Shown: positions 1-63,644 of the stretch, piece after piece
Layout: every line of letters begins with the position of its first letter
Position numbering within the stretch: position 1 is the first letter of the stretch
DNA from: Halichondria panicea
Lineage: Eukaryota; Porifera; Demospongiae; Suberitida; Halichondriidae
Assembly: GCF_963675165.1 (NCBI RefSeq)
Contig: NC_087384.1
Span: 4,767,182-4,831,181 of the forward strand
Reading direction: 5' to 3'
DNA length: 64,000 bases
The notes under the pieces: generated by a model
Database searches by the model: none
Told to the model about the DNA's origin: nothing
What the model saw: the letters and a program-made list of their open reading frames with translations, nothing else
Program-made: the position numbers and the translations under genes

Positions 1-3000
1 ACTCTGTCTGTGATGGACACCTGCTGCTGCACTTTGTCTCTCTTCTCCCCCTCCGTCTGACCAGACAACCAACTCACCACCCACGGGTAGAAATTGGCCG
101 TCACACCACTAAACCCGCTGCAAGGAGGTGATCAATGGGTCATACGTATGTAAAACACACAATCCTTAAAGAAGAGTGCAGAATGAATTAAGACAGGTAG
201 AAGTTTCACACTACAGTAGCTAATGCCCCCGTAAAAAAAACTAACAGCTAGCAATGAGGTCATTGTGTTGCTATTAAAGCAAACAATATGATTCAGCATG
301 ACACTATCAATTAATAGTGTGAGGAGACAATACTCCGTACAATACGAGTAGTGACTCACCCTCCTCCATTGTCTACACATGTACTGATAAACTGGGCCTT
401 GGCAGTGAAAAACCTGAGTGGAGAACAAATGTAATAAACTGCACACACATTGCTGGCCACGTAACAAATCTATATGCTTAAACTACAATGTAGTACTCAG
501 TACTTGAGAAAGTCGTACGTTCATGCAAAACGTTACTCAATGTGAGTACCTTGCATAAGAGCCATCCCATAAAATGATTAAGTAACTCTGGATTTTACGT
601 ACAGTACGTACTATTTTATACTCGAGTTTTTTCTTGCATGACAGTAAAAATAATCTGATAACCCACATAAACTAAACCTTTCCATCTTACATTAAAGTAT
701 CGATCAGTAACAAACCAGTTTTTGTTGGAGGGTTTATAATCACGTTATGTTGTCAAGGTTATAAGCGTGTAATAAAAGTCATACAGTGACAGTCCCTTCC
801 GTGTTAATTAAATGATCAGGGCATGATTTGGTAAGGGGTTGTCGTGATATAAAACACGTATATAATAGCATAATAATCCTTGTAATATACAGCCACAAGC
901 ACGAGGGCGAGTTGCTCTCATGCTATATCTATTACGTCTGAATGATTTTGGTAGAATGATGTGTTTTGAAAAGGATACACATGTGCATGTGGGAATAACT
1001 TCCACCAAGAGTCATTAACTTCCATACATTCCTTATTATAATAATAGTGGCTATACAATAATTATCAGAGCAGTATCAATGCAATAATGTGAGAAGTATT
1101 CGACAGAATGCCCGACCACTGATATACATACATGTACGTATAGCATCAGAGGGGTATGTACCGATTGAGTGTCAGAAAGAATTAATGTCCCTGACGGAAT
1201 ACTATCCCATGCCCAGCTAGAGAGTGGGCTATCAGATAAATTATAGACGTACAATGTACAGTATTAGGTTTCAGTGATTATTATGGAGCTAGTGACCCAC
1301 ACTAAATTTAGGATAAGGGGAAAAAACAATACACACAGTTAAAATGTGTGTCATATTGACTGGGAAAGAACCAATAGTACTACTGAATATGCTGATCAGA
1401 GGCTGCGGCTACAAATGTTTCATTTTCCTGAGAAGGCTACAATTCGACAGATTGAGGCCATTGTTCAAGAGAGGCATTTATTAAGCCCCAGCTAATTCAA
1501 CAACCTTTAGTTTGTCATCAAAAGTTATTTTCACCTGCACAAACTCGAACTCTACCATAAGAAAGTCTTTCATGTACATGTACATGTACCAGTATTGATA
1601 TGGTTGCCACGTGCAGAGACATAGCCACAAAGTTCACTGAGGCTACTATTTGAGAGCGGCTTCTATTGCACTAGCTGAAGATGGGCTGTAGGGAGGCTAC
1701 TATTTGAGTGTGACCTTCATACAAGAGCAGCCTCTGATCAAGCATATACGGTAGTTACTTTACATAAATGGTGTGTCACACAGGCTAACAATGTACACCC
1801 TATGTATAAGTGTTACTCACTTGAGTGGTGTGTTAGGCACAGACTGGGCAGCTCTGAGTTTCGAGAGCATAGTATCCACTTGGAGAGAGGTGTCTTTGTG
1901 GAACACAAACCTCCCAGTGCCTGCAACCCAGCGAATCATCTCCAGAGTAAGCCACCTGGAATAAACAATGACACAGTTCCATTGATACAGCATACCTACA
2001 TGTATGTATACATAACACTTTTGTGCACACACTAGTTTGAATTTGAAAAGTTAGGTCAGGTGATAAAAGTATGGGGTATAGACTCTAATGCACAAAACCC
2101 TTGCATGCTTCTAGAGCACCGCTTAAAAGAAGCCAGACAACAGGTGAGACACTACCTGTCAGCAAGCAGTTACTAGAGAAGGACTAGATTTACAAGAAGA
2201 GAAAGGGTTAGCTGTGAGAATGTAGAAGCGTTAAGACTCGGAAAAAGCCACCCACATAAGTTATACATAAAGAATAGCCGCTAATTTCATGGAACAAAAT
2301 TTCACGGTTTTCGCGGATTGACCTCTATCCTCGAAAATAATTTTGAGCAATCTATGAAATGTTTGCTCCTCAAAAATAAAACACTATACGGTATCCGTAT
2401 AACTACTGTAGTAGTGACATGCCTAAGAGGGATGAGTTTCGAAACAAACTAGCTGACACAAAGCTAACATTCTACAGGCTACAGCTTAGAGCTTACTTGA
2501 CGAGTGGCTCAAAATGACACATTGTAATTGTACATGCATGTACCTTGCTTGGGGTACTGGTGTCTCGTACAGTCCCAGTGGGAGGTCTCCAGTCACCTCC
2601 ATCAGCTTCTTGCAGTTTCCTAGCCACACTTCATCACTCTGTAAGGGTACACGCATGGGCAAATTAATAGCAAATGATTTTGACTAGAACCACAAGCAAT
2701 TTCTCATAAAACAATACCGACATCTGGAAAAAACTCTCACTGTCTACATGATCGACACTGTGTTTGCTGTTTAGAGCTACATGTGTACAATGGTAGATTT
2801 CACAATTCTTTCGTATATATATGTACTGTATTTACTTGATTAAACGCCCGGGTGTTTATTTCCTAGCAGCATCTGTAGAGGGGGCGTTTAAACGAGATGG
2901 GCGCTTATTCGAAAGGGGCGTTTATTGTTTTGTCTACTTCAAACTCTTGCTCATCAGCAGTTATTATGCTCTTTTTGGCTGCTACCACAGCTCTCAGCTT

Positions 3001-7400: not shown

Positions 7401-10400
7401 CCCAATTGACTAAGAAGCTGGCTCCCCCACTTGTGACACTGCTCTCTGCTGAACCTGAAATCCAATTTGTTGCTCTCAGGAACATCAATTTGATTGTCCA
7501 AAAGAGGTAACAAAACTTGAAAAAATTATAACACAATGTGTAAAAAAAATTAACTGTGGAGAATCCGGGTATCGATCCCGGTACCTCTCGCATGCTAAGC
7601 GAGCGCTCTACCATTTGAGCTAATCCCCCAGTCATGTCTAAATGATTGCATTCACTGCATTTATCTTGTGCTACTCACTGCAGACCTGACATTCTGAAGG
7701 AGGACATCAAGGTTTTCTTTGTCAAGTACAATGACCCTATCTACGTGAAACTGGAGAAGTTGGACATCATGATTCGCCTAGCCACTCCTGCAAACATTGG
7801 CAATGTTTTGGCAGAGCTGAAAGAGTGAGTAGTACTATAATCGTAGTGTATCATGCAGCAGTATAGTTGTACAAGGTGATACTAGAGTGGATTGTGCCAT
7901 TTAGGCCACTTTTTAAAATATTCTGTTGAGCTTGAGCAGTATATCCCTACTAGCTGTTGGTATACCTCATCATAAGAAAATATTTACATTTATACGACAC
8001 ACACTAGGTATGCGGCCGAGGTGGATGTGGACTTTGTGCGTAAATCAGTGCGTGCGATTGGTCGATGTGCCATCAAGGTGGAGTCAGCCTCTGAGCGTTG
8101 TGTCAGCACCCTGGTGGAACTTATCCAGACAAAGGTGGGCGAGTAAAACATACACGTCAGGTTACCTTCTTGAGAAGGAAAGTGAAGTAGTTTAGTGTCA
8201 TGTTGTAATCTGTGTTCTTTGTGTACTATTCAAGGTAGATATGTAGTACATCAGCCAGGTGCAAAAACATACATACAAGTGTATCACATGATGTACTATA
8301 CAATAGTAAAAGTTTAACTGCTTTGTGCATTAACATGGGGGGTGATATCTACACTGTTCTTTTCCGTTGATACTCTTTTCTGTGAGTAGGTGACATATGT
8401 GGTTCAAGAAGCTGTGGTGGTGATAAAGGATATCTTCAGAAAGTATCCCAACAAGTATGAGAGCATCATCTCCACACTCTGTGAGAATCTGGACTCCCTC
8501 GATGAACCAGAGGCCAGGTTAGAGTTATAATTAATATAAATTATCATCATTCTGTATACTGTGCTTCTTTGTAAAAGACAAGACAATGTTTTGAATGTAC
8601 ATGGCCATTGTGTTGTGCCTTGAAATTAAACCTGTTTGGTTTACGTCCTTGGGGGTATACATGTACACGTACGTGTATGTCGTTTCAATTCTATCAGTCT
8701 ACACAAAATTAATGGAGTGTCTGTACATTACTGATGTGTGTACATGTTTGTACAGCTTCTGCTTTTGACTGTGTTATTGCTTTCTGCACAGAGCCTCCAT
8801 GATCTGGATCCTGGGTGAGTACTGCGACCGTATTGACAATGTCGATGAACTACTCAGCTCCTTCGTGGAGAACTTCCACGACGAGAACGCACAAGTCCAA
8901 CTGCAACTCCTCACTTCAACCGTCAAGCTCTTCCTCAAACGACCAGCTGACACCCAGGAGCTGGTACAGAGCGTGCTCAGCCTGGCCACGCAGGACAGTG
9001 ACAACCCTGACCTGCGAGACAGGGGCTACATCTACTGGAGACTGCTCTCCACTGATCCGGCAGCCGCTAAAGACGTGGTGCTGGCTGAGAAACCGACCAT
9101 CTCTGAGGAAACTGACCTTCTCGAGCCTGGCCTGTTGGACGAGCTCATCTGCCATATATCGACCCTTGCTTCAGTGTATCATAAGCCGCCATCTGCGTTT
9201 GTGGAGGGCAAGGTGCCTGTCAAGAGAATGACCCTCCAACCAAGAGCTGAGCCGTAAGTTGGTTATGTGTAACTGTTGCAAGTTGATGTTTGTAGTATTT
9301 TCATGTACGCATATTGGTACAGTACACATGCTTTTCAATCTTACTGTGTTTCTTACTGTGTTGTATATCTTCGCCCTCATGTACAGTGTATACATGTACA
9401 GTGTTAAATGTATATACTAGTTGCTGTACTACTGAGTTGTTAATGCACCTCTTCTTACATGTACCTCACCCTTTCCTCCAGTTCGTCTTCCCAGTCTACT
9501 GAGGAGCAAGCTCCTGCTGCGATACAGCCGACGGTGATCCAGGCCGATCAGGGAGGGGACAATCTGCTCATAGGAGACCTTCTCTCTCTGGACATTGGCT
9601 CCAATCCAGCAGCTCCTGTTGACCTAGGTGAGTATTTATTACTGGCTTTAGTGGCAGTGTACGATGGTTTGTAGTGGTAGTGTACGGGGGTTTGTAGTGG
9701 CGAGGTGGTTTGAAGTACGTACAATGCATGTAATTACAATTTTGAAAACTGTGCCACGCCCAATTTCATGGTGCATAATTGCGTGTGCAAACATTGTACA
9801 TATACACGTAGATCTCTATCTGTCGATGTATAGTACCGTATTACTAGAATGTTTTGCGAGCATCAAACATTTGCGAATTTTGCGAGGGTTGATCAATTTG
9901 CAACAATAAAATCCACAAAACCTAATTAAGTAAATCCTTGCCAGAACGGAATAGTTAGATCGCAAAGGGTCAAATTTTCTGCTGATTTGGCTCATTCGCA
10001 AAGGTTTTTCACCAGCAAAATATTCTAGTAATATTTACGGTACTGATCTTCATGTTTTCAGGTGGAGGAAGTCTTGCTGATCTTCTAAGTTCTGACCTGT
10101 CTGGACTACAGGTGGGTTCAGTACCTACCCGTACAACTGTACACATACATGTACTGTTAGTGTAGTAATATAAACCACAAATATCACGGATTTTCTATCT
10201 CCCAGTTTGATCCAATGGCGTCCACTGGCCTTGGTTTCCAGCCTCCTATGAGTATGGCTGCGCCTGTATCTAGTGGTGGGGGGCTGGACTTCCTGGGAGG
10301 TCTGGGAGGATTTGGAGGAATGGGAGGAATGGGTGTCGGCAGTAGCAGCGGACCCACATTCTACACCCCACCTAAAGAGGTAAGCTGAGTGTTGATACTA

Positions 10401-30889: not shown

Positions 30890-32368
30890 ATGACTTTGTT
30901 GATCACGATTGGTACTCTCTCTTCATTCTGGGCTGTTCTGTTCCTCCTAGACCAGCTCATAAGAAGATACAGACCATGGAAATCGGCCTACCTTCAACGT
31001 CTTGAAGATTGCGGTCTCAGTCTCTCCTTCGCTCATGTTAAGTGCTACACTACCAAGTTTAATAAATTCTTTCACACCATTGGGAACAGTAGCAGGACTG
31101 CTTGTCGTCTATGGTTTGGACTAGGCGTGCTGACGGGAGTGTTGCTCATGATAACGTCAGTTGCCGTCCTCATGTACACTCTGTTTCAATTCATATTCAG
31201 TAAAGTCTCAGAAGATGGAACTCACTCACATCAAGTCTTAACTCCTGTGATGCCCGGTGTTAATCTACCATGGAACGATATCGCTTACTACCTATTTACC
31301 CTGACTGTGTGCGGTGTGTTTCACGAGGCTGGCCATGCTTTGGCTGCTTCGACAGAACAAGTCACTGTGACTGGTTTTGGTGTGTTTGTGCTCTTCCTCT
31401 ACCCTGGTGCATTTGTGGATCTTCATTCCGATCATCTGAGTGTGATTTCACCTAAAAGGCAATTGAGAATCTACTGTGCAGGAGTTTGGCATAATACAAT
31501 ACTTGTACTGTGTGCACTCGGTTTGTTATGGTGTATGCCCTATATACTCTCTCCATTGTACATGTCTGGTATTGGAGCTGTTGTGACATCACTTCCCGAA
31601 GACAGTGTTTTGGCTGGGAAAATTCGACCGGGAAGCGTGATCACTCGAGTCAACTCATGTCTTGTTACTACTGATGAAGGTTGGTATAGTTGTATTATGG
31701 ATATTGCAAACAGACCACAAAGAGGATACTGTGTACCCAATGAAATGTTAACTGGCAGAGAAGCTTATGGGGTGAACGAGACAACGGTTGCTGACGATGG
31801 AACGATTGAATGTTGTAAAGAACATTTAGACTCTGATATCTGTTTTCACATATTCTACAGCAAAGGACGACATAGTCAATACAAGTGTTTAACAGCAAGG
31901 GCTGTATCAGCGAGAGAAATGTGTGGGAGTTCAAGAGACTGTCACGGTGTCTATGAATACGCCTGTGTCTTCCCAGCTATATCCTCTCCAAGTAAACTAA
32001 TAAGAATTTCACATACTGAGGACAAAGATGTATTATTCCTCGGAGATCCATCTGCTCTTCCTTACATTGTATCAACGAGCAGCTTTGTTCCAAGAGTATC
32101 TGTCGCTCCATTGTGGCTACCAGGACTCATGAAGACTCTTTGCACGTACTTTATTTCTCTCTCCAGTGCACTGGCGCTGTTGAACATGGTACCTGCCTAT
32201 TTCCTCGATGGGCAATGGACTCTCTCTGTGTTGATGGAACTTTACTTTGAAAAAAAAATACCAGATGCTCATAAACGACATTTTATTTTAAACTGTGTTT
32301 TAATATTTGGAAGTGTTTTGTTAGGGTTAAATATTTGCTTGGGAATTTGGACACTAATCAATTGGTAA
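30890..32368 (+). CDS. MBTPS2: Membrane-bound transcription factor site-2 protease (M50)
   Basis: A single 492-aa open frame (human S2P has 519). Site-2 protease performs intramembrane cleavage of SREBP and ATF6 in the Golgi after site-1 cleavage. The zinc motif is HEAGH (His145, Glu146, His149) inside a hydrophobic helix, and the third ligand is in NMVPAYFLDGQ (Asp440), the M50 NxxPxxxLDG motif. Several hydrophobic segments are visible, including residues 1-22, about 75-105, 185-225 and two at the C-terminus. A Cys-rich luminal loop with a PDZ-like stretch (LAGKIRPGSVITRVN) lies between the two halves, as in animal S2P. The start follows an AG acceptor, so the CDS may be intronless with a spliced leader exon. 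An extra N-terminal coding exon cannot be excluded, but length argues against it. Confidence 0.95.
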   Translation: MTLLITIGTLSSFWAVLFLLDQLIRRYRPWKSAYLQRLEDCGLSLSFAHVKCYTTKFNKFFHTIGNSSRTACRLWFGLGVLTGVLLMITSVAVLMYTLFQFIFSKVSEDGTHSHQVLTPVMPGVNLPWNDIAYYLFTLTVCGVFHEAGHALAASTEQVTVTGFGVFVLFLYPGAFVDLHSDHLSVISPKRQLRIYCAGVWHNTILVLCALGLLWCMPYILSPLYMSGIGAVVTSLPEDSVLAGKIRPGSVITRVNSCLVTTDEGWYSCIMDIANRPQRGYCVPNEMLTGREAYGVNETTVADDGTIECCKEHLDSDICFHIFYSKGRHSQYKCLTARAVSAREMCGSSRDCHGVYEYACVFPAISSPSKLIRISHTEDKDVLFLGDPSALPYIVSTSSFVPRVSVAPLWLPGLMKTLCTYFISLSSALALLNMVPAYFLDGQWTLSVLMELYFEKKIPDAHKRHFILNCVLIFGSVLLGLNICLGIWTLINW

Positions 32369-35600: not shown

Positions 35601-37259
35601 CGAATCTCACCAGGAATAGCAATGGAGAGTCCACCTGTGTGTTCATAATTACTGATAACATTAATTTTGGGTAAACAGCTACATAATAATTATTAGAGGT
35701 GACCTCTGTTCAGTGGCTGTGTTGAACAATGTCATATATTATTATAGATCGTCCATTTGCTAGTATTTGCTGGATTTCTCCTTCCATGGTTATAATTATT
35801 ACAGTTGGTCTCTCTTTAAGATCATCCACTTCAGAAACTCAAAGAAGCATCCGTAACAGGAAGAACAAGGGATAGATATACACACCGTATTTCTGACTTT
35901 TCGAGTGCTAATCACTCCGTTAAAAGCGCAAAAACTTAAACTGGTACTGGTATGACACACAATCCTTGCCAGAACGCAATAGTTATATCACAAAGGTCTG
36001 CTAATTTGGCTCATTCGCAAAGGTTTCATCGCAAAATATTCAAGGTCGTATATATATAAAAGAGAAAAAGGGCATGCATGCAACAGCTTGTGAGCAGACT
36101 GTAAAATGCAAGTGGGCGGTAGAAAGTACAGCTGAGCCTCGATTATCCGATTATCTAAACACCTGCATGTCATATCCCCACCTTATTTGTATGGCTGAAA
36201 TATTCGAATAACAGAATGAGCCACGCCCCTCCAATAATTCAAGGGCATCAGCATGCTAACGATGCCCCAAAGCTCTTACAAATGTACTAGTCTTAGACAT
36301 AATGCAGTTGCCATGTTCAGTATATTATATAGACAGAACAAAATACCAAGTTATCTGCTAGGCTAAGCTAAAATGTTCAGCCGATCAGCAGAACATCAAA
36401 GCAGCTAAAACCATATAGCTTTCCACTTCAATGTGGGAGTAAGTGTTTTTGTTATCATTAACATTTGCTGAATCTGTGGGAGTAAGTGTTTTTGTTATCA
36501 TTAACATTTGCTGAATCGTTCACCCGGATAAGAGTGATCAGGGTTGAAACTCAACTCTACATAAACACATGCAATAGAATGTTGTGTAAAGTACATAGTA
36601 TAGCACTGTAAATAGATCTCACAATTTTAATATGTATATATAGCGGGTTATTTTCGTATGGTGGAAATTTTAGCATATTGAGCATCATATGAAAATTACC
36701 GCAATAGCTTCAACATCACTATCCTGAGCTGCATGTAGGAATACGAAATACTTAGTTTATGAAAAATTGCACCAACGAAAATTCCCCGCTGTATAGTACA
36801 TATATATATACCTCTTATGTGACTGTCAGAAGCAGTGTTGTTGTACATGTATGTACTCGCATTCAGAGGGGCAACCTCTCGAAAATCCAGAGCGAATGAC
36901 TCTCCACTGGTGTGATTGTAGTAGACCATGAAGCCTCCTCCTCCAATTCCAGCAGAGTGAAAATTGACAACCCCCACACAAAGCTGACCGGCTATCGCAG
37001 CATCCACAGCACTCCCTCCTTTCTTGAGCATTTCCACTCCTGCTTTAGAGCAAGCTTCAGCATCAGCAGCTACAGCTGCATTGCTGTAAGTAGCACTGTC
37101 TTCAGCACTTGCACTGTTGGCATTGGAGACTCCGACACCCACACCAACACCAATACCAACTGCAATCACAATCACCAAGACTACAGCAATGCCTACACCA
37201 ACCAGGGCAAGGGTTTTTGTTGAAAGTGGGCTTTTGGCAGACTTCTCTTCATTTGCCAT
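32670..37259 (-). CDS. Gamma-glutamyltransferase copy A, frameshifted in exon 2 (possible pseudogene)
   Basis: Seven minus-strand exons homologous one-for-one to copy B: 37259-36812, 35634-35434, 35332-35028, 34894-34770, 33635-33439, 33297-33066 and 32927-32670. GGT is a type II membrane, self-processing Thr hydrolase that cleaves glutathione. Exon 1 encodes a short cytosolic tail, one membrane helix and [19 protein letters not shown] and [12 protein letters not shown]. Exon 5 has the catalytic nucleophile context [11 protein letters not shown], and exon 6 has [13 protein letters not shown]. Exon 2 is 201 nt against 199 in copy B. An extra TA at about 35522-35527 (+ strand CAGTATAGCG against CAGTAGCG) throws the frame into TAA after [10 protein letters not shown]. 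Every other exon and splice site is intact, so this is either a young lesion, a polymorphism or a sequence error. Exon 4 ends in Leu where copy B has Gln. Confidence 0.85.
34050..34735. mobile_element. Foldback element in GGT copy A intron
   Basis: Two inverted arms of about 130 bp (about 34050-34186 and 34598-34735) share GACTTAGCAAGGCAGGCT, GTGACAAAGAACA and TGCGAAGGAGGCTA. They flank about 410 bp of unrelated sequence. Copy B has no counterpart in its intron 4, so insertion followed the gene duplication or was lost from B. No transposase is seen. The small open frames inside are not supported as genes. Confidence 0.7.
36432..36517 (+). repeat. 43-bp tandem duplication
   Basis: Two adjacent identical 43-bp units starting TGTGGGAGTAAGTGTTTTTG, in the first intron of GGT copy A. 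Copy B lacks it. Confidence 0.9.
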
Positions 37260-37360
37260 AGTTAGATCTATAGATTTACTCGAGTACTCTGTAGCTATAA
37301 AAAAAATTTTATGTAAATTATAGTGGGAGGCTTGATTTATATAATTATTAATTTTAGTGA

Positions 37361-37372
37361 TGCGCATGCGCA
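37361..37372. promoter_or_regulatory. NRF-1-type palindrome upstream of GGT copy A
   Basis: TGCGCATGCGCA matches the palindromic NRF-1 consensus and lies 102 bp upstream of the copy A start codon. Copy B has TGCGCATGCGC at 43455-43465, 76 bp upstream of its start. Confidence 0.45.
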
Positions 37373-37628
37373 TAACAGGACCGGAGAGTAACCATGACAC
37401 ATTCCACATCCTCCACCAAGAAGCATCTGTTTCATCGCCTGGCCATTGCACTTTGGAGAGGAAATGCCTGCCTGTGGCTTCATCGCCAACAAACTTTATC
37501 TCCTTCAGCGGATGGTATCCGCTAAACTGTATGCCCCCCCTCTTATCTTTTGGTCTGTTGCTTTTGTACATTTGTACTGTTTGATATTACATGATAAAAA
37601 AAAAGTTTGTCGTGTGTACGTGTAATTA

Positions 37629-42300: not shown

Positions 42301-43379
42301 GTTGAAGTTGGACCACTATACTTGCTTGCTAGATATAACATTGCTGAGCAGCTCTTATGGAATCACTTAGCTGTATTCCATTGCAACCATGCATGGAGCA
42401 GTTGTATATAATTAAATTCGATGCTTCAAGAACTTCCGCAATAATGAATTATTTTGACCACCAACCGTGCTCTAACTACCCCGTGCAGCCATTCTCTAAA
42501 TACCAAGCCGTGCTTTTTATTCCAACCACAGAATAAGAGCACAGTAGTCTATGGAATTTGTTAGCATAGTTTTTCCCATGGCTTCCATACTATACAACTT
42601 TATCTGCAGGATTGTGATGTACCTCAAGGCTTAGAGAGAGACAACAGGCTTGACATTTAATTGCAATGGTGACAAACTAAATAATAATAATACTAAAAAT
42701 GGTGCGCTTCAGTTAACTTTCTCTGTGTTCCTGTCGGGGTTGTTACTTCTAAAGTGGCTGTTTTGAACATGCAATGTCATAAACCTATAGACTATACAAT
42801 TGTATAATTTCCCTATGGTCTTTATAATTACGAATCATGCAGTCAGCCTCTCTTTAAGCATGGCCATTTATACATAAGCAATGGATAAAGCTATTATGCT
42901 AGCTGTTATGTACCTCTTATGTGACTGTCAGAAGCAGTGTTATTGTACATGTTTGTACTCGCATTCATAGGGGCAACCTCTCTAAAGTCCAGAGCAAATG
43001 TCTCTCCGCTGGTGTCATTATAGTAGACCATGAAGCCTCCTCCTCCAATTCCAGTAGAGTGGAGATTGACAACCCCCACACAAAGATGAGCAGCTATCGC
43101 AGCATCCACAGCACTCCCTCCTTTCTTAAGCATTTCCACTCCTGCTTTAGAGCAAACCTCAGCATCAGCAGCTACAGCTGCATTGCTATAAGTGGCACTG
43201 TCTTCAGCACGGTTGGCATTTATTGAGACTCCCACACCAACACCAACTGCAATTACTAAAACTATAGCAACACTTGCACCAAGTAGGGCAAGGGTTTTTG
43301 TTGAGATTCGGCTCTTTGTAGACTTCTCTTGATGGATGAGAAGTTCACTCCTCTCATGTGTATCAGGTTGACTGGCCAT
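39331..43379 (-). CDS. Gamma-glutamyltransferase copy B (glutathione hydrolase), intact
   Basis: Seven minus-strand exons: 43379-42914, 41739-41541, 41426-41122, 40950-40826, 40298-40102, 39948-39717 and 39588-39331. All phases agree and give 593 aa (typical GGT is about 570). It is a type II membrane protein: cytosolic tail MASQPDTHERSELLIHQEKS, then the membrane helix LALLGASVAIVLVIAVGVGV (about residues 32-51), then the extracellular enzyme. Conserved features are [44 protein letters not shown], the autoprocessing/catalytic Thr in [11 protein letters not shown] (codon at 40167-40169), [16 protein letters not shown] and [18 protein letters not shown] hydrolyses extracellular glutathione and gamma-glutamyl conjugates. 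The exon 5 donor is GTAGGT. It is tandem with frameshifted copy A and head-to-head with the Ig receptor. Confidence 0.95.
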
Positions 43380-43714
43380 TATAGCTAGCTATTTAGTCTT
43401 GACTAAGCTTGTTGCAAAAATTAATAGAAGGGAGGGGCTGGTTATACATTTTAGTGCGCATGCGCTGATAACTAAGTGCAGAGCCAGAGAGCAACAACGG
43501 TGGAATGTGGTACTAACTGGTGCTGGATTTGAGCAAATTCCATTCCATCCCTGGCAACGTGGATAGAGAAGTGGCTGGAAACCACCTTCCTTGAGGTAAA
43601 CAACTCTTCAGTCAATTGCTGCATCCACCTACAATTGGCCAGTTAATCTATACATCTGAGTTTTAAGAACACCCTCATCTGTTGCAGTATCATTGGACAC
43701 TACATCTTACTATC
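43380..43714. promoter_or_regulatory. Shared head-to-head promoter, GGT copy B / Ig receptor
   Basis: 335 bp between divergent starts. It contains the NRF-1-like palindrome TGCGCATGCGC at 43455-43465, nearer the GGT side. Confidence 0.5.
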
Positions 43715-56985: not shown

Positions 56986-57631
56986 ATTGTATAGAACATT
57001 GAAGTGCAAACCCTCGGTGTTAATTTGAGGTTTGCGAGTCTACAGCCTCGAGTCAAAGCCGTGTGTACATCTAGGCCAATGCAGGTTCGAGCTTTTTAGC
57101 TTCTTAGCTTTTGCTCGCTTTTACTCGAAAACGAAGCTTTAATCAAAATATGCCAAATTTAAAACTACTACCACAGTATAAACACAGACAGGTGAGTAGA
57201 CTCAGAATACACAGACACACTATAACCCGTGGCGCCACGTGTTAATTAATGGTTCTGCATGCATGTTCTGTAACATGGGGCAATCGTTTTAATGTTAACT
57301 TGAAGTTGTTTAACTAGCTTTATGCTCACAGCATTGTAGTTGCTCTGCAACATATACTGTAATCGACTGTATATACATGCATGTGTATAGGGAAGAGAAC
57401 ATCACCCTATACCAGCAATGTGTTAATGAAAAAACTACCAGCGAAAAAATTTTAACGTACATATGAATGACGTTGTAACAGACCTATACTCTTGTCCGCT
57501 TTCTTGTTTCTACGCTTTTTAGTGTTTCCCCCGGCCAATCCTAGTAATTTTTCACATTGTAAAGGTTTTTGTGGGTTAACTAATACATTGTATAACATTA
57601 ATGTGATAACATATAATTTTCTGCTTTTTAG

Positions 57632-60600
57632 CACCTGTAGCCAAGGTAATGGATTGTGAGGAGGAAAGCAAAAGTAACGAGGTACTCACCACTACTAGCA
57701 CACATCCCCATCATAACAGTGCAGATTTAGGAGAGTCTACCGAGTACCGCACTTTACGTAATTGCTACCCAGAATTGGTAGAGCATGTCAAGCTGCAGCT
57801 AACAACAATTTCTTCTGCCCTTTTTTCGAAAAGCTACATACCAAATAATATCCATGAGGACTCAACCAGTGATGGAGTATCAGATGAAAAGAAAGCTAAA
57901 AAATTACTGGATGCAGTGCTAGCGAAAGTAAAGCTCAACCCTGATACTTATCATGGCTTTGTTGATATTCTTGGGAGAGAGGGACCCTGGGCAGATGATA
58001 TCATCAAGCATTTAAAGGACCATTTTCACTCTATCAAATCCGAGATGAAGCAAACCCAACACAAAGGTGAGTATAGACATGCACCTCTGTAAGTGTATGC
58101 TCTAAACTTTATCTCTTAGCGAAAACAGAGTTACAGTTTTATGTAATTGGGGAAGCATGCCACAGTGTAATGCGGGGTAGATTTTCGTGGAAGAGGTTTT
58201 CGTGGAGGTTAGCTTACCCACAAAAGTAACGAATATTTACTCGATGAAAATTATGACCACACCCATACAGTAGAGAGTTTCAATACCGAATGTAAACCAA
58301 TTTCCGAGGCACTAAATTTTCGTGTTTTACGGTCAATCCTCGAAAAACTCAAAAATGTCGTGCCTCGAAAATAACCAGCTACACGGGGGGAAATTCAAAA
58401 TTGTTGGTAACTTTCACAATCTTGCACAGCAAGAACGTGAAAGTGGGCTACGTGTTATGTGCAAGCCATAAACGTGCGTATGCGTTAGTCCCTTTATATA
58501 GAACATAATTATCTTCTTCCCAAATTTTTTGGCTATACCACATTATATACTTTATACTCCTGAAGCCATGCAGGAAAATATTTATACACAATAAATCACA
58601 CGTATCTTACAATTGTCCACAAAAACAATCTCATCATGGCTCGTATGAGCGATTATACGCCCTTGCATGTAAACATAGATTGCTTATTACAGAGGCGCAC
58701 ATGATCATGTGATGCGTGTTCTACCTCTTCTGGTCCCAGCTAAACCAGATTTTTAATGTACTTTGATACGTATCTGGCCGGATATCATATATATAGAATA
58801 TGAAAGAAAAAAATGGATTCAGAAAGCATAATGTGAAATGTAGCCACTTTATATACCATTGCATGGGGCCAAATTCGGCACTGTCCCAATTTAGGGTGAT
58901 CGGATTACTGTATATAGTACTTTCTCCCATGTATAGGCCTGGTTGAGAGAGCAAGTGACACTAAACGAGTGCTTGTCACTGTTGACAATCGTGAAGATAG
59001 CAAAGAAAGACTGTACATCACTGAAAACATTCAAACTCTCCAAAATCTCACCGAAGAAATTCGTCAGATGTTTCAGCTGGACGGGCACTGTATCATCACA
59101 CTTCAAATATGGGATGCCAGCTTCAATGACTTTGTGTCTATCAAAGACATGAATGAGATACAGGACTGTTGCAAGATCAATGTAAGTTTAGTCTTCAGAT
59201 ATTCTTGCATAATTATATAATTTACCATAATTATTGTACAGATCAAACGAGAGTTAAAAAAGTTAAACGCTATAATAACAAGTCGCTCGCGAGGACCTCG
59301 TGTACCAGCAGGCGTTTTTAGAACTTGCAGCAGGGGGGTTCTCAAATTCCTAAAAAATGTCAATTGAGACTCCGTCTGTGTATAAACTGCTGATTGCGCA
59401 TGCTCAATGGGACGTGGTCATGACTAGTAACACGAGCCAATGTACTTTCATTTGCTTAATTAAGAGAATTCGAGACAATTGCTCAGCTAGCTAGACCAGT
59501 ACTAATAGCTAGATTGCATAGTTGCCTGGAAGGGCAGGGGGTGGTGCTCAAGCTCCCAAAGTCTCTCGTTAGACACGCCACTGGGTCATGAGTGGTCAGT
59601 GAAGCACACCCGAGTACTGACAGAGGTCTCCAGAGTATCTATACACCATGCACAATGACATACTCGATTTATCATATAATGCAGTGGTATATAGGTAAGT
59701 CAGTTTTGATAGTTGTACTAGCTGTATTATACATTAAAACTCATATCAGTGCAGCTATGATGCAAACAGAGCTAAAAACACTCTTCAGTCTACAGCATGC
59801 AGTATCATAAAGAGAAACAGAGCTATAGAGAGACACAAAATCTCCAGGGCTTTAGAGAACTACACAGCCTTGCACAAAGAAGAGCTATATATAATTCTGA
59901 CCTCTACCTATAGAGGATGGCCTCATTGACTTATGTCTTTGCAGTTAAGACTTATACACTCGTAACTATATATAGTTAGGTACTACTCACATGATCGTGG
60001 GCAATATACCGTGACCTCGCGAGCACAAAAACTTCAATCGTGAGTATAATAACCTCGATTACCGAGCGACTCGTCACTCGCATTTAACTGTCGTCTGATC
60101 TGTACTGTACTCTCATAATTTGTAAGATGCCTGCATGTGACATCAATATGTTTTGAATGTATAGGCTGCCACCAGGAAGCAAGCACAGACACCTCAGATT
60201 CAGACTCAAGTACGTAATTATCCGAGCTATATCTAAGCGGGGGTTATTAATTATCATCAAATAAACCTTTTTGACTAAATGATTACATCAGTGTTGTGTG
60301 AATCCTGTTCCAATCAATGTCACAGCAAGCTTATAATTTCTTTTCAGGTGGTCTACTGTGGTACTAATATATTCTTGGGCCAATCCAACATGCCTGCGAA
60401 TGTAAATCCTCGTAGGCAAAGCAACACATTTCCTCGTAGCCGAGGAGCTCTTGGTGCTTACATTGTTTATAACAAACTTTGGAAGGAAAGAGAGGTACTG
60501 AAAGTGTTCTTCAAGAATCCCGAAGTAATTCGAAAGTGGAAGTGCAGAAACGAGCCGATGACAACTACCAACATCCTTGCTTGGGCAGCTGTTTGGAATC

Positions 60601-63600
60601 ATCCTTTCCACAGCAATATTATTCCGACGCTCGAAATAACAGAAAATATTGAAAATTCTGACATAAGAGTGCAGTTTCTTGGTATGTAGATTTGACGAGC
60701 ATATAGCGAGTCTATAATAATTATATTTAGTGCTCAACATTGCATTTTGTCTGTAATAGTATATATATATATATATGTATGCATGGACCGGCACAATATT
60801 TTAGAGAGTTTGAGTGTTCTTTATGCTTGTGCTTGGTTCCAGCAGGAGCCGTAATTATTATAGTCAGGAGCCCACAAATAAGAGAAGGAGCGGCTAACTT
60901 CAATGTATACTCGGGGATCATGTTTCGTAATTGCCGGTGAAACTGCATTTCTTTTTATATGGAAGCGACTATAAGTGCTTGCAAACCACAGCCATTGCGT
61001 ATAACACGTGTATAGGGATTCAACTACTTAAGTGACTCGGAAATTAAATGCGGTCATAGTCACTTACGAAATGTGATCCCCATAGTCAGCCGCTCTTTTT
61101 TTTTTTATGGGCTCCTTTTGTAGTCTTGTAATCTTTAAGCAGTGCACTCAAGACCTTCAGAAGTCAGCATTAGGCAAATGGCAGCCCCAGAGCTTAAACG
61201 AGACACAGACACTCCTGAGGCCAGGCAGGCACGTATTTAGCTTACTAATAGATCTACGAGACGCAGACACTGTCATTTAAAATTAATTTTAACTCATAAT
61301 TATCATAGAACAGGGACCTGATATGAATGAACAACTATTATCGTAATAAACGCGGTAACGTACTCTCGCACCCCATGTTATAAATTCTCTGCTAAAATAT
61401 ATGGAACAGTGGTATGGCATCCAACAGTACACGATATCTATTTTACCATGAGCTTCAGTTTTCCCTTTTAAAACAGAGGAATCGAGTGGTTGCTGGTCGA
61501 TGGTGGGCACAAATGCTTCGGGGAAGGACATTACTATGGTACTGGATCTCAGCCGTCACCCTCCTAATGTGCAAAGAAGTCTGGTCATCCACGAGTTTGG
61601 ACATGCCCTGGGGCTCGAGCACGAACACCAGCGCTCAGATTTTTGGGATATTGTCGGAAAGCACATTGATCTTGAGAAAATGAGGAAAGATGCACCGGTG
61701 CAGAGAGCTCCTGAATCTGACGATGAGCAGGGGGGGGTAGGTTTTGAGAAAGACTGGGAGGCAAAAATAGGAGGGGGTGAAGAGGAGTACACCGCTGTCA
61801 AGTCTGAGTATGATTCGAAAAGTATTATGCATTACCGGTGAGTTTAGTTCACCGTTATTTCATGTTAAATTGAAGTACGTATTCTATAGCTTTGATGTCA
61901 AATGGCTCAAAGATGGTGTTTCTACATTGGCTGACATTGAGACACACCCGGATCTGTCTAACAAAGAAAAGAAGTACCTCAAAGCAATCCTCCAGCGAAG
62001 TGGTATTGGGCCACTACCAAAGGAACCATCAAAATTGGACATTCAGGAATTGGTGAAAGCATATGGTATGTTTTTGTAAAAATTATACGGATCTCTTTGT
62101 GCCGGACCAGTTTACACATACTTTTATTTTCAGAGACAACTGGACGTCGTCAGAAACCCCCTCTAGAAATGACAAAAACTTTTCAGAATCCCACTAGCAA
62201 CGAACACGTCACATTGGATGATGCTCACATGGAGGAGAAAGACACTCAAGAGCCCAAAATCTGGACGGGGAGGTCTGTACTGAAAGTATACTTCATGAAT
62301 CCCGAAATTCTTGAGGAGTGGGCAAATGGGACGAGAATCGACAACATCATGACGTGGGCATCTTCTTGGAATTCTCCCTTATACGATCAAATTCCAAGGT
62401 TTGAGGAAACCAAAGACGATTTAACTGCCGACATCCGTGTCAGGTTTTCAGGTGTGCGTGCATGAATGCATTTAGCACTGTTAGTGTAAAATTGTTTCAA
62501 TTTTGATTTTCTGGATGGATCTCATCCAGTGGCGGATCCAGAGGGGGTTCTTTGGTTCAATTGAACCCCCTTTGAGAAAGAAGTGAGTGGGAGGCTCAAG
62601 CAACTAGTTAGCAAGTTGTTCCTTTCTTACTAGCTTTCACATGCACTTCTCACTAACCTTTAGTCCTTGTTAGCCTTGCGAAGCTTTGTCTGTGCAGTTT
62701 CAGTGACTATGAAGGCTAAAAACTCTCCAGCGTAGTGCATGCAGATTGCTTATGAAAAGTGATAACCTTTTTTTTAGGAAAAAATTCGGTGTTTAATGCG
62801 CATGCTCACTGTTTCGAAGAAGTGACGACCTTTTTTTGTAAAATAACAGTCCTTGACCCGCTCAGAGCCCTGGAACCCCGGCCCCCTTTCAAGAATCCTA
62901 GATCCGCCACTGTCATCTATATATTTTCTTTCATGCAGATTCATCTGGTAGCTGGTCTGCAGTGGGTACTGATGTCCAAAAAGTAAAAAAGATGAAGCCG
63001 ACTATGATGTTGGATCTAAAAAGCTATAATCGCTACTTTCAGAGGTACCTTGTCATTCACCAGTTTGGACATGCCCTGGGACTCGAGCATGAACACCAGC
63101 GCATGGACTTTTGGGATGGTATCAGGAAGCACATTGATACAGAGAAGATGGGAAACGACAAAAGCACAGGGAACTACAGTTCGGTGTCATCGAAGGCTTT
63201 CAAAAGAGATTGGCTGGAATTGGGGGTGAAAGCACACAGGGAAAGTGTTATTCCCTATGACCCACAGAGCATCATGCACTGGTGGTAAGACTAATAAATT
63301 CACTTTTGGTTGTTGTGATAATTATATATGCGACTCATGTGAGCATCATACACTTAATTAAAAGTGTCTCGTAAAATGTAAAAAGACTTAATGTAATATT
63401 ATTATACTTGCCATTTTTCTAATCTGTGCGAAATGCCTAAATTATGCATGCATGCATAGGTTTGCCGTCGAATGGCTCAAAGACCCTAAATATCATAAGC
63501 TAGAGAATATCAAGAGTGACTCAAGCCTAACAGATGATGAGAAGAGGTTTCTGGAGGCTATTCATGCAAGGAACAGGAAGTATGTACTAGCCCCCTCGAA

Positions 63601-63644
63601 AAGCGACTTTGAGTACCTTGGAGAGGTTTACAGCCGACTCGGAG
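57632..63644 (+). CDS. CARD-like protein with two tandem metzincin domains, the second inactive-type (3' end open)
   Basis: Nine phase-consistent exons: 57632-58066, 58937-59181, 60165-60209, 60348-60681, 61477-61837, 61890-62065, 62134-62451, 62939-63284 and 63460-63644. The gene probably continues past the window. The first ATG in this series is at 57649; exon 48802-48904 may precede it. Order: a CARD-like helical domain (ELVEHVKLQL ... DEKKAKKLLDAVLAKVKLNP ... WADDIIKHLKDHF); an unrecognised domain that may be beta-grasp (KRVLVTVDNREDSKERLYIT ... LQIWDASFNDFVSIKDM); then metzincin domain 1 with HEFGHALGLEHEHQR (codons 61590-61634) and Met-turn SIMHY; then domain 2 with HQFGHALGLEHEHQR and SIMHW. 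HExxHxxGxxHE plus SxMHY is astacin-type. Domain 2 lacks the catalytic Glu (CAG at 63061-63063) but keeps the three zinc His. I see no signal peptide, so the protein is probably intracellular, which is unusual for astacin-like enzymes. Confidence 0.85.
60866..61128. repeat. Foldback repeat
   Basis: CAGGAGCCCACAAATAAG...GGAGCGGCTAAC...GGGGATCATGTTTCGTAA at 60866-60930 is mirrored by TTACGAAATGTGATCCCC...CAGCCGCTC...GGGCTCCTTTTG at 61056-61128. It lies in the intron inside metzincin domain 1. Confidence 0.75.
62527..62912. mobile_element. hAT-like MITE, CAGTGGCGGATCC ends
   Basis: A 386-bp element beginning CAGTGGCGGATCCAG and ending in the inverse of CAGTGGCGGATCTAG. This terminus is typical of non-autonomous hAT-type elements. 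I could not confirm an 8-bp target duplication. It lies in the intron within metzincin domain 2. Confidence 0.75.

Follow-up and report, generated by a model that had tools for sequence, protein, structure and literature searches.

We find that a single gene in the sponge Halichondria panicea encodes a predicted CARD, a small alpha/beta domain, and two astacin-like metzincin domains in tandem, the first with an active-type zinc site and the second with the features of a pseudo-protease. In the spliced frame, domain 1 reads HEFGHALGLEHEHQRSDFWD (HEFGH at residue 386) with SIMHYR at residue 463, and domain 2 reads HQFGHALGLEHEHQRMDFWD (HQFGH at residue 673) with SIMHWW at residue 743. The original prediction, which placed HEFGH with SIMHY and then HQFGH with SIMHW in one gene, is borne out, since both pairs of motifs fall in one spliced open frame.

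The gene lies on the + strand of the window, by which we mean the whole 64,000-nucleotide stretch of DNA that was analyzed; the window falls within contig C8 of the genome searched (131 Mb, 39 contigs). The model has 11 exons from 57649 to approximately 64430 and encodes 879 aa followed by a stop. All ten introns are GT-AG with matching phases, and the frame is open throughout. Two further exons lie outside the window, and the 849 residues and the end at 63644 given originally must be extended accordingly. The earlier list of parts also missed the exon-2 domain, these last two exons, and the setting of the gene in a family of about 50 such protease domains. An AG at 57630–57631 and an open frame directly before the ATG make an upstream exon possible, and the C-terminal exons have no Pfam match. 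The features of the locus, with the evidence for each, are as follows.

57649..58066, +: exon 1, start codon and predicted CARD, residues 1–139 (gene model, AlphaFold, PDB matches)
58937..59181, +: exon 2, small alpha/beta domain (AlphaFold model, search of the sponge's own genome)
60165..60209, +: exon 3, 15-residue linker (phase-0 exon, GT-AG borders)
60348..60681, +: exon 4, metzincin domain 1, N-terminal half (gene model; family N-half profile match at 60456–60683)
61477..61837, +: exon 5, metzincin domain 1, C-terminal half, HEFGHALGLEHEHQR and SIMHY, active type (Pfam Astacin, 29.7 bits)
61890..62065, +: exon 6, metzincin domain 1, C-terminal tail (gene model and profile match)
62134..62451, +: exon 7, metzincin domain 2, N-terminal half (gene model and profile match)
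62939..63284, +: exon 8, metzincin domain 2, C-terminal half, HQFGHALGLEHEHQR and SIMHW (Pfam Astacin, 25.9 bits)
63460..63644, +: exon 9, metzincin domain 2, C-terminal tail (gene model)
64107–64187 by extrapolation (L009:207–287), +: exon 10, outside the window (gene model)
64300–64430 by extrapolation (L009:400–530), +: exon 11, outside the window (gene model)
65236–66512 by extrapolation (L009:1336–2612): third metzincin copy, HQFGH, outside the window, starting about 0.8 kb past the last exon and broken by two frameshifts

The assignment of exon 1 as a CARD is supported by its modeled fold and by homology to a relative that passes the Pfam threshold. The AlphaFold model of exon 1, made from 23 sequences, has six helices (mean pLDDT 90.2), and its best PDB match in Foldseek is the APAF-1 CARD 1cy5 (probability 1.00, E = 0.016), in keeping with the CARD-like domain first proposed from the sequence. 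Ranks 1–3 are APAF-1 CARDs and rank 4 comes from the Apaf-1-caspase-9 holoenzyme, all with probability 1.00 and E values between 0.016 and 0.052; rank 5 is a designed protein, and the next 35 matches are mostly CARDs; no Foldseek match of the CARD model falls under E = 0.001. The expectation that Pfam would recognize a CARD and two zinc-metalloprotease domains in this protein held for the latter, as both match Astacin, but not for the former, as the window's exon 1 itself has no Pfam CARD match. Among the aligned exon-1 members, 7/23 match Pfam CARD at E ≤ 0.1 (best 9.7e-6), and one relative (C1:5338259), located 1.4 kb upstream of a metzincin, scores above the cut-off (24.5 vs. 23.9 bits). 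Four longer frames containing other CARD relatives have no Pfam match at E ≤ 0.01. In a search of the sponge's own genome, with 150 of 208 candidates scored, the CARD family occupies at least 121 places. One CARD relative lies in a 384-residue frame (L155:379–1530) with Kelch repeats about 0.8 kb further on (2374–3000), and frames similar to this one recur along C1:15.5–17.4 Mb.

The domain encoded by exon 2 is modeled as strand-strand-helix-strand-strand, a ubiquitin-like order, at moderate confidence (AlphaFold pLDDT 72.5), with no confident match in the PDB. A single-sequence search of the genome places it at six sites, the window and five others, and in 6/6 cases a metzincin of this family follows shortly after it; a profile search finds ten in the examined loci, most of which were chosen for their metzincins. 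Its order of elements may set it apart from TRADD-N, which is characterized as RRM-like in the relevant section of PMC8195603.

Both protease-like domains are, by sequence, M12A/astacin-like metzincins. Each C-half exon alone passes the Pfam Astacin cut-off of 22.5 bits, and a profile built from 32 family C-halves matches myroilysin, the closest solved structure, over the whole profile (E = 2e-14); NCBIfam yields only weak matches, far below cut-off. Domain 1 agrees with the zinc motif HExxHxxGxxHExxR and with the Met-turn SxMHY. Domain 2 departs from them at the catalytic Glu of HExxH and at the Met-turn Tyr, where it has Gln and Trp, and keeps the three His, the Met, and the remainder of the 15-residue motif. 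In metzincins, this Glu is the general base. Loss of the catalytic residue in a domain whose fold and frame appear to have been constrained marks domain 2 as a probable pseudo-protease, and the proposal of a metzincin pair with one active-type and one pseudo-type member agrees with both the Astacin scores and the motifs. The same Glu is called catalytically essential in the part of PMC9848320 that treats it. From these residues we infer catalysis by domain 1, catalytic inactivity and zinc binding of domain 2, and, from the wider architecture, an immune role. The 879 aa contain no F.GDI (FXGDI) prodomain motif and no signal peptide or hydrophobic segment (best 19-residue hydropathy 0.59 for segments starting in the first 42 residues and 0.82 for the whole protein); a signal peptide might still be encoded by an upstream exon outside the model.

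The gene belongs to a sizeable family. Two largely overlapping searches, each returning 50 places with fragments included, indicate about 50 such metzincin domains in the genome. Zinc motifs in the examined loci comprise 43 HEFGH and 6 HQFGH (49 in total, of which the motif pattern found 48, 42 Glu and 6 Gln, and one HEFGH, in L048, was added by eye). Gln is found in domain 2, in the third copy beyond the window, in L012, L013, and L019:7335, and in the second domain of L022. A Met-turn Tyr is present in 40/40 Glu-type motifs that have a Met-turn in the same open piece. Among Gln-type motifs with the Met-turn in the same open piece, Tyr is found in three (L012, L013, and L022) and Trp in domain 2; in the two whose Met-turn lies in another frame, the residue is Ser (third copy) or Tyr (L019). 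Family members cluster at C3:1.36–1.47 Mb and C1:5.3–5.5 Mb. Identity with classical astacins was rejected, as an array at C3:4.78–5.01 Mb with many matches of 120–151 bits forms a separate group; this dense classical array spans C3:4783703–5010224, apart from the CARD-associated family.

Death-fold neighbors recur in the family. At least six family metzincins are preceded, on their own strand and at no more than 5.1 kb, by a CARD, compared with 0.11 expected for unlinked positions. The expectation was calculated from 48 metzincins and 121 CARD matches, a lower bound since 150 of 208 candidates were scored, and the six pairs were taken by eye from search listings and include tandem copies that are not independent. 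L029 and L030 each show a CARD, a Death-like stretch, and a metzincin, with Death scores of 16.8 and 16.0 bits that fall below the 22.6 cut-off, and L017 has two Death exons after metzincin tails that score above it (44.2 and 40 bits). At L022, two metzincins, possibly of one gene, follow one another on one strand, Glu then Gln, in the same order as in the window gene, with no CARD or exon-2 domain upstream within the stretch examined. L012, which has a CARD, and L013, both Gln-type, have no second family match within 17 kb, so that pairing in cis is not required. The idea of an enzyme paired with a decoy does not extend to a rule for the family.

The Gln of domain 2 is shared by domain 3, the third copy, and the two domains differ by dN 0.075 and dS 0.53 (dN/dS 0.14 over 157 codons). 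The simplest reading is that Gln is older than the split of these two domains and that constraint preserved the sequence through most of the period that followed. The ratio averages both branches and is no proof of present-day constraint. A local error or young mutation, a concern attached to the original prediction, was rejected because the diverged third copy has Gln too. For other pairs, considering the ratio alone, dN/dS is 1.97 for the Gln pair L012–L013, 1.70 for the Glu pair L025–L026 of the same clade, and 0.34 for the Glu pair in L017. Since Glu and Gln pairs behave similarly there, the L012/L013 clade appears to evolve fast whatever the residue. Gln also occurs in decaying copies, as frameshifts break both L019:7335 and the third copy.

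Gln appears to have arisen independently at least three times as a safe count, and four times in the best tree. Four Gln copies use the codon CAG and the other two, L012 and L013, use CAA; this pair differs at two bases from its closest Glu relatives, which have GAG. The AU test rejects a single origin of all Gln copies in a 53-row tree in which the trait residue was masked (six Gln rows, P = 9e-5) and in a 26-row tree built from whole domains (four Gln rows, P = 1.7e-35); the groups were defined by the trait after an initial tree had been seen. Five changes are required on the 53-row tree, presumably including one at a bacterial Gln row, and three on the 26-row tree. A clade uniting domain 2 with the second L022 domain is not rejected (P = 0.10, 26-row tree), which is why three rather than four is the safe count. 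One of these origins concerns L019:7335, a broken copy whose position in the tree was set by 33 residues. The first tree left out the fragments L019:7335, L031, L041, and L050, of which the 53-row tree restored L019:7335, and the 26-domain tree is without domain 3 and L019:7335. Eight bacterial rows are scattered in the 53-row tree, some inside the family on very long branches, and since they do not form one side its root is unsure. Were replacements free among the seven single-base non-stop outcomes, the chance of 3/3 going to Gln would be 0.003, a figure that overstates the case because Gln is already the commonest replacement of the catalytic Glu in zincins in general, according to a survey of zincins (PMC3650047). 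Among the bacterial relatives, 1 of 86 motifs has Gln in the matches listed (78 of 80 loci kept of 136), as counted with a motif pattern that itself required Glu or Gln and leaves other residues unseen. One bacterial relative that reads HQFGH is L132:1516 (uncultured Bacteroidetes).

Caspases are among the effectors that death-fold domains are known to recruit. The reading we favor, with a probability of roughly 0.45, is that the protein works in the cytosol as a zinc protease recruited through its CARD and carries, in cis, a regulatory pseudo-protease that binds zinc. Infection or damage would activate an upstream CARD protein, which would nucleate the CARD; CARD clustering would bring the protease domains together, and domain 1 would then cut a substrate. 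Domain 2 would bind the same kind of peptide, or pack on domain 1, without cutting. It could thereby direct substrate choice, keep the enzyme latent as the absent prodomain would, or do both. The gene model, the CARD fold, the CARD and Death-domain neighbors, the Glu-Gln order at L022, the Trp in domain 2, the dN/dS of 0.14, and the lack of a prodomain motif are consistent with this proposal. The missing Pfam match of the window's CARD exon, the Foldseek E values of 0.001 or more, the Gln copies without a nearby partner, the Gln in broken copies, the possible upstream exon with a signal peptide, and the fast evolution of the L012/L013 clade count against it. If zinc proteases of the astacin type are indeed recruited by death folds inside the cell, they would constitute an extra effector class in early animal immunity. 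The several Gln copies within one genome also offer a ready test of whether loss of the base alone, with the zinc site kept, is selected.

Among caspases and their relatives, a death-fold prodomain is joined to a protease, and c-FLIP is a catalytically dead relative that acts as a regulator. By analogy, and more tentatively, animals, or at least this sponge, may have a family of death-fold-gated cytosolic metzincins that parallels the caspases with zinc-based enzymes; its dead copies would have arisen repeatedly as regulators in cis or in trans, as c-FLIP did for caspase-8. Unlike the metzincins, caspases and c-FLIP have a cysteine protease fold and carry live and dead copies on separate chains. 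Less likely, deamidation, for example by a microbial deamidase, could convert Gln into the catalytic Glu and so turn the copy on, with L012, L013, and L022, which keep the Met-turn Tyr, as candidates; for domain 2 such a switch is disfavored because this domain has Trp at the Met-turn Tyr.

Several other explanations would account for part of these observations. Domain 2 may merely be decaying, its catalytic Glu and Tyr lost by drift after duplication with no role, as the frameshifts in the third copy and in L019:7335 and the general preference for Gln among zincin replacements noted in PMC3650047 would allow. We consider this unlikely given the ratio of 0.14 between two domains that are both Gln, the intact zinc His, Met, and rest of the 15-residue motif, the open frame, and the recurrence of the same order at L022. 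Integrated decoys of plant NLRs provide the model for another and rather less probable explanation, in which domain 2 would be a bait mimicking the cleft of its active sister, and binding of a microbial inhibitor or effector would trigger the CARD. A kept zinc site, a lost catalytic base, and a fused CARD would all fit, as would the clustered family and its two fast-evolving pairs (1.70 and 1.97, by ratio alone), but domains 2 and 3 give 0.14, where an interface of that kind would be expected to evolve fast.

It is less probable again that neither domain is a protease and that both are peptide-binding modules on a CARD scaffold. The description of animal astacins in PMC9848320 as extracellular enzymes with a prodomain points that way, as neither its motif nor a signal peptide is seen here, but domain 1 and 40/40 readable Glu-type motifs keep the Glu, three His, Met, and Tyr. 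Finally, two genes could have been misjoined, a CARD gene beside a metzincin gene, and the introns of 870 and 983 bases that part the first three exons leave some room for this. We regard a misjoin as very improbable, since all introns are in phase, the exon-2 domain adjoins this metzincin family at all six of its places, and CARD-metzincin neighbors were found six times, with the judgment between one gene and two based solely on splice phase and recurrence of neighbors.

Individual elements of the favored arrangement, a CARD-recruited protease with a pseudo-protease in cis, have counterparts in known systems. Domain 1 shares HExxHxxGxxHExxR and SIMHY with astacins and myroilysin (M12A), and both domains pass Pfam Astacin. 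Here, unlike in astacins, there is an N-terminal CARD and there are two copies, the second without Glu and Tyr, and neither a signal peptide nor FXGDI is seen; astacins are extracellular, with signal peptide and prodomain, as outlined in PMC9848320. Death-fold and effector proteins are expanded in the sponge Amphimedon, and sponge proteins that combine Death-like, TRADD-N, and variable effector domains resemble the present protein in their N-terminal death fold, small alpha/beta domain, and variable C terminus, in both cases according to the sponge section of PMC8195603. The enzymatic effectors that this section lists for Amphimedon are caspase, PNPase, and HD, with no metalloprotease among them. 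In bacterial iSTAND2 systems, a predicted immune effector likewise carries a zincin-like metalloprotease domain that is inactive, but there the fusion partners are a PUA domain and a STAND NTPase, with no CARD and no active partner domain as described in the same source (PMC8195603).

Catalytically dead metallopeptidase domains are also found elsewhere. ADAM7 has HQLGH, the same Glu-to-Gln change with the His kept, as stated in part of PMC11266112, but it has an ADAM architecture and a transmembrane segment, with no death fold and no active copy in the chain. Carboxypeptidase D resembles the sponge protein in having tandem metallopeptidase domains in one chain, the third inactive beside two active ones, as also given in PMC11266112; it differs in belonging to family M14, with another fold, a signal peptide, and a transmembrane segment. 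CLCA metalloproteases have lost the proper active site repeatedly and independently, probably five times, and the passages of PMC3650047 on them mention no CARD or tandem pair. Death-fold effectors in a sponge, HQ metzincins, and chains with active and inactive copies are thus known already; within the portions of the open-access literature that were searched, no CARD-metzincin protein is named and the combination was not found.

The window contains other features apart from this gene. An intronless 492-residue frame at 30890–32365 (+) matches Peptidase_M50 (67.8 bits) and is site-2-protease-like. Similar gamma-glutamyltranspeptidase 5′ exons at 36699–37586 (−) and 42909–43388 (−) score 90 and 94.2 bits and point to a tandem pair. 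An exon of an adaptin-like protein lies at 8769–9254 (+; Adaptin_N, 86.7 bits), and a tRNA-Ala with anticodon agc lies at 7556–7629 (−).
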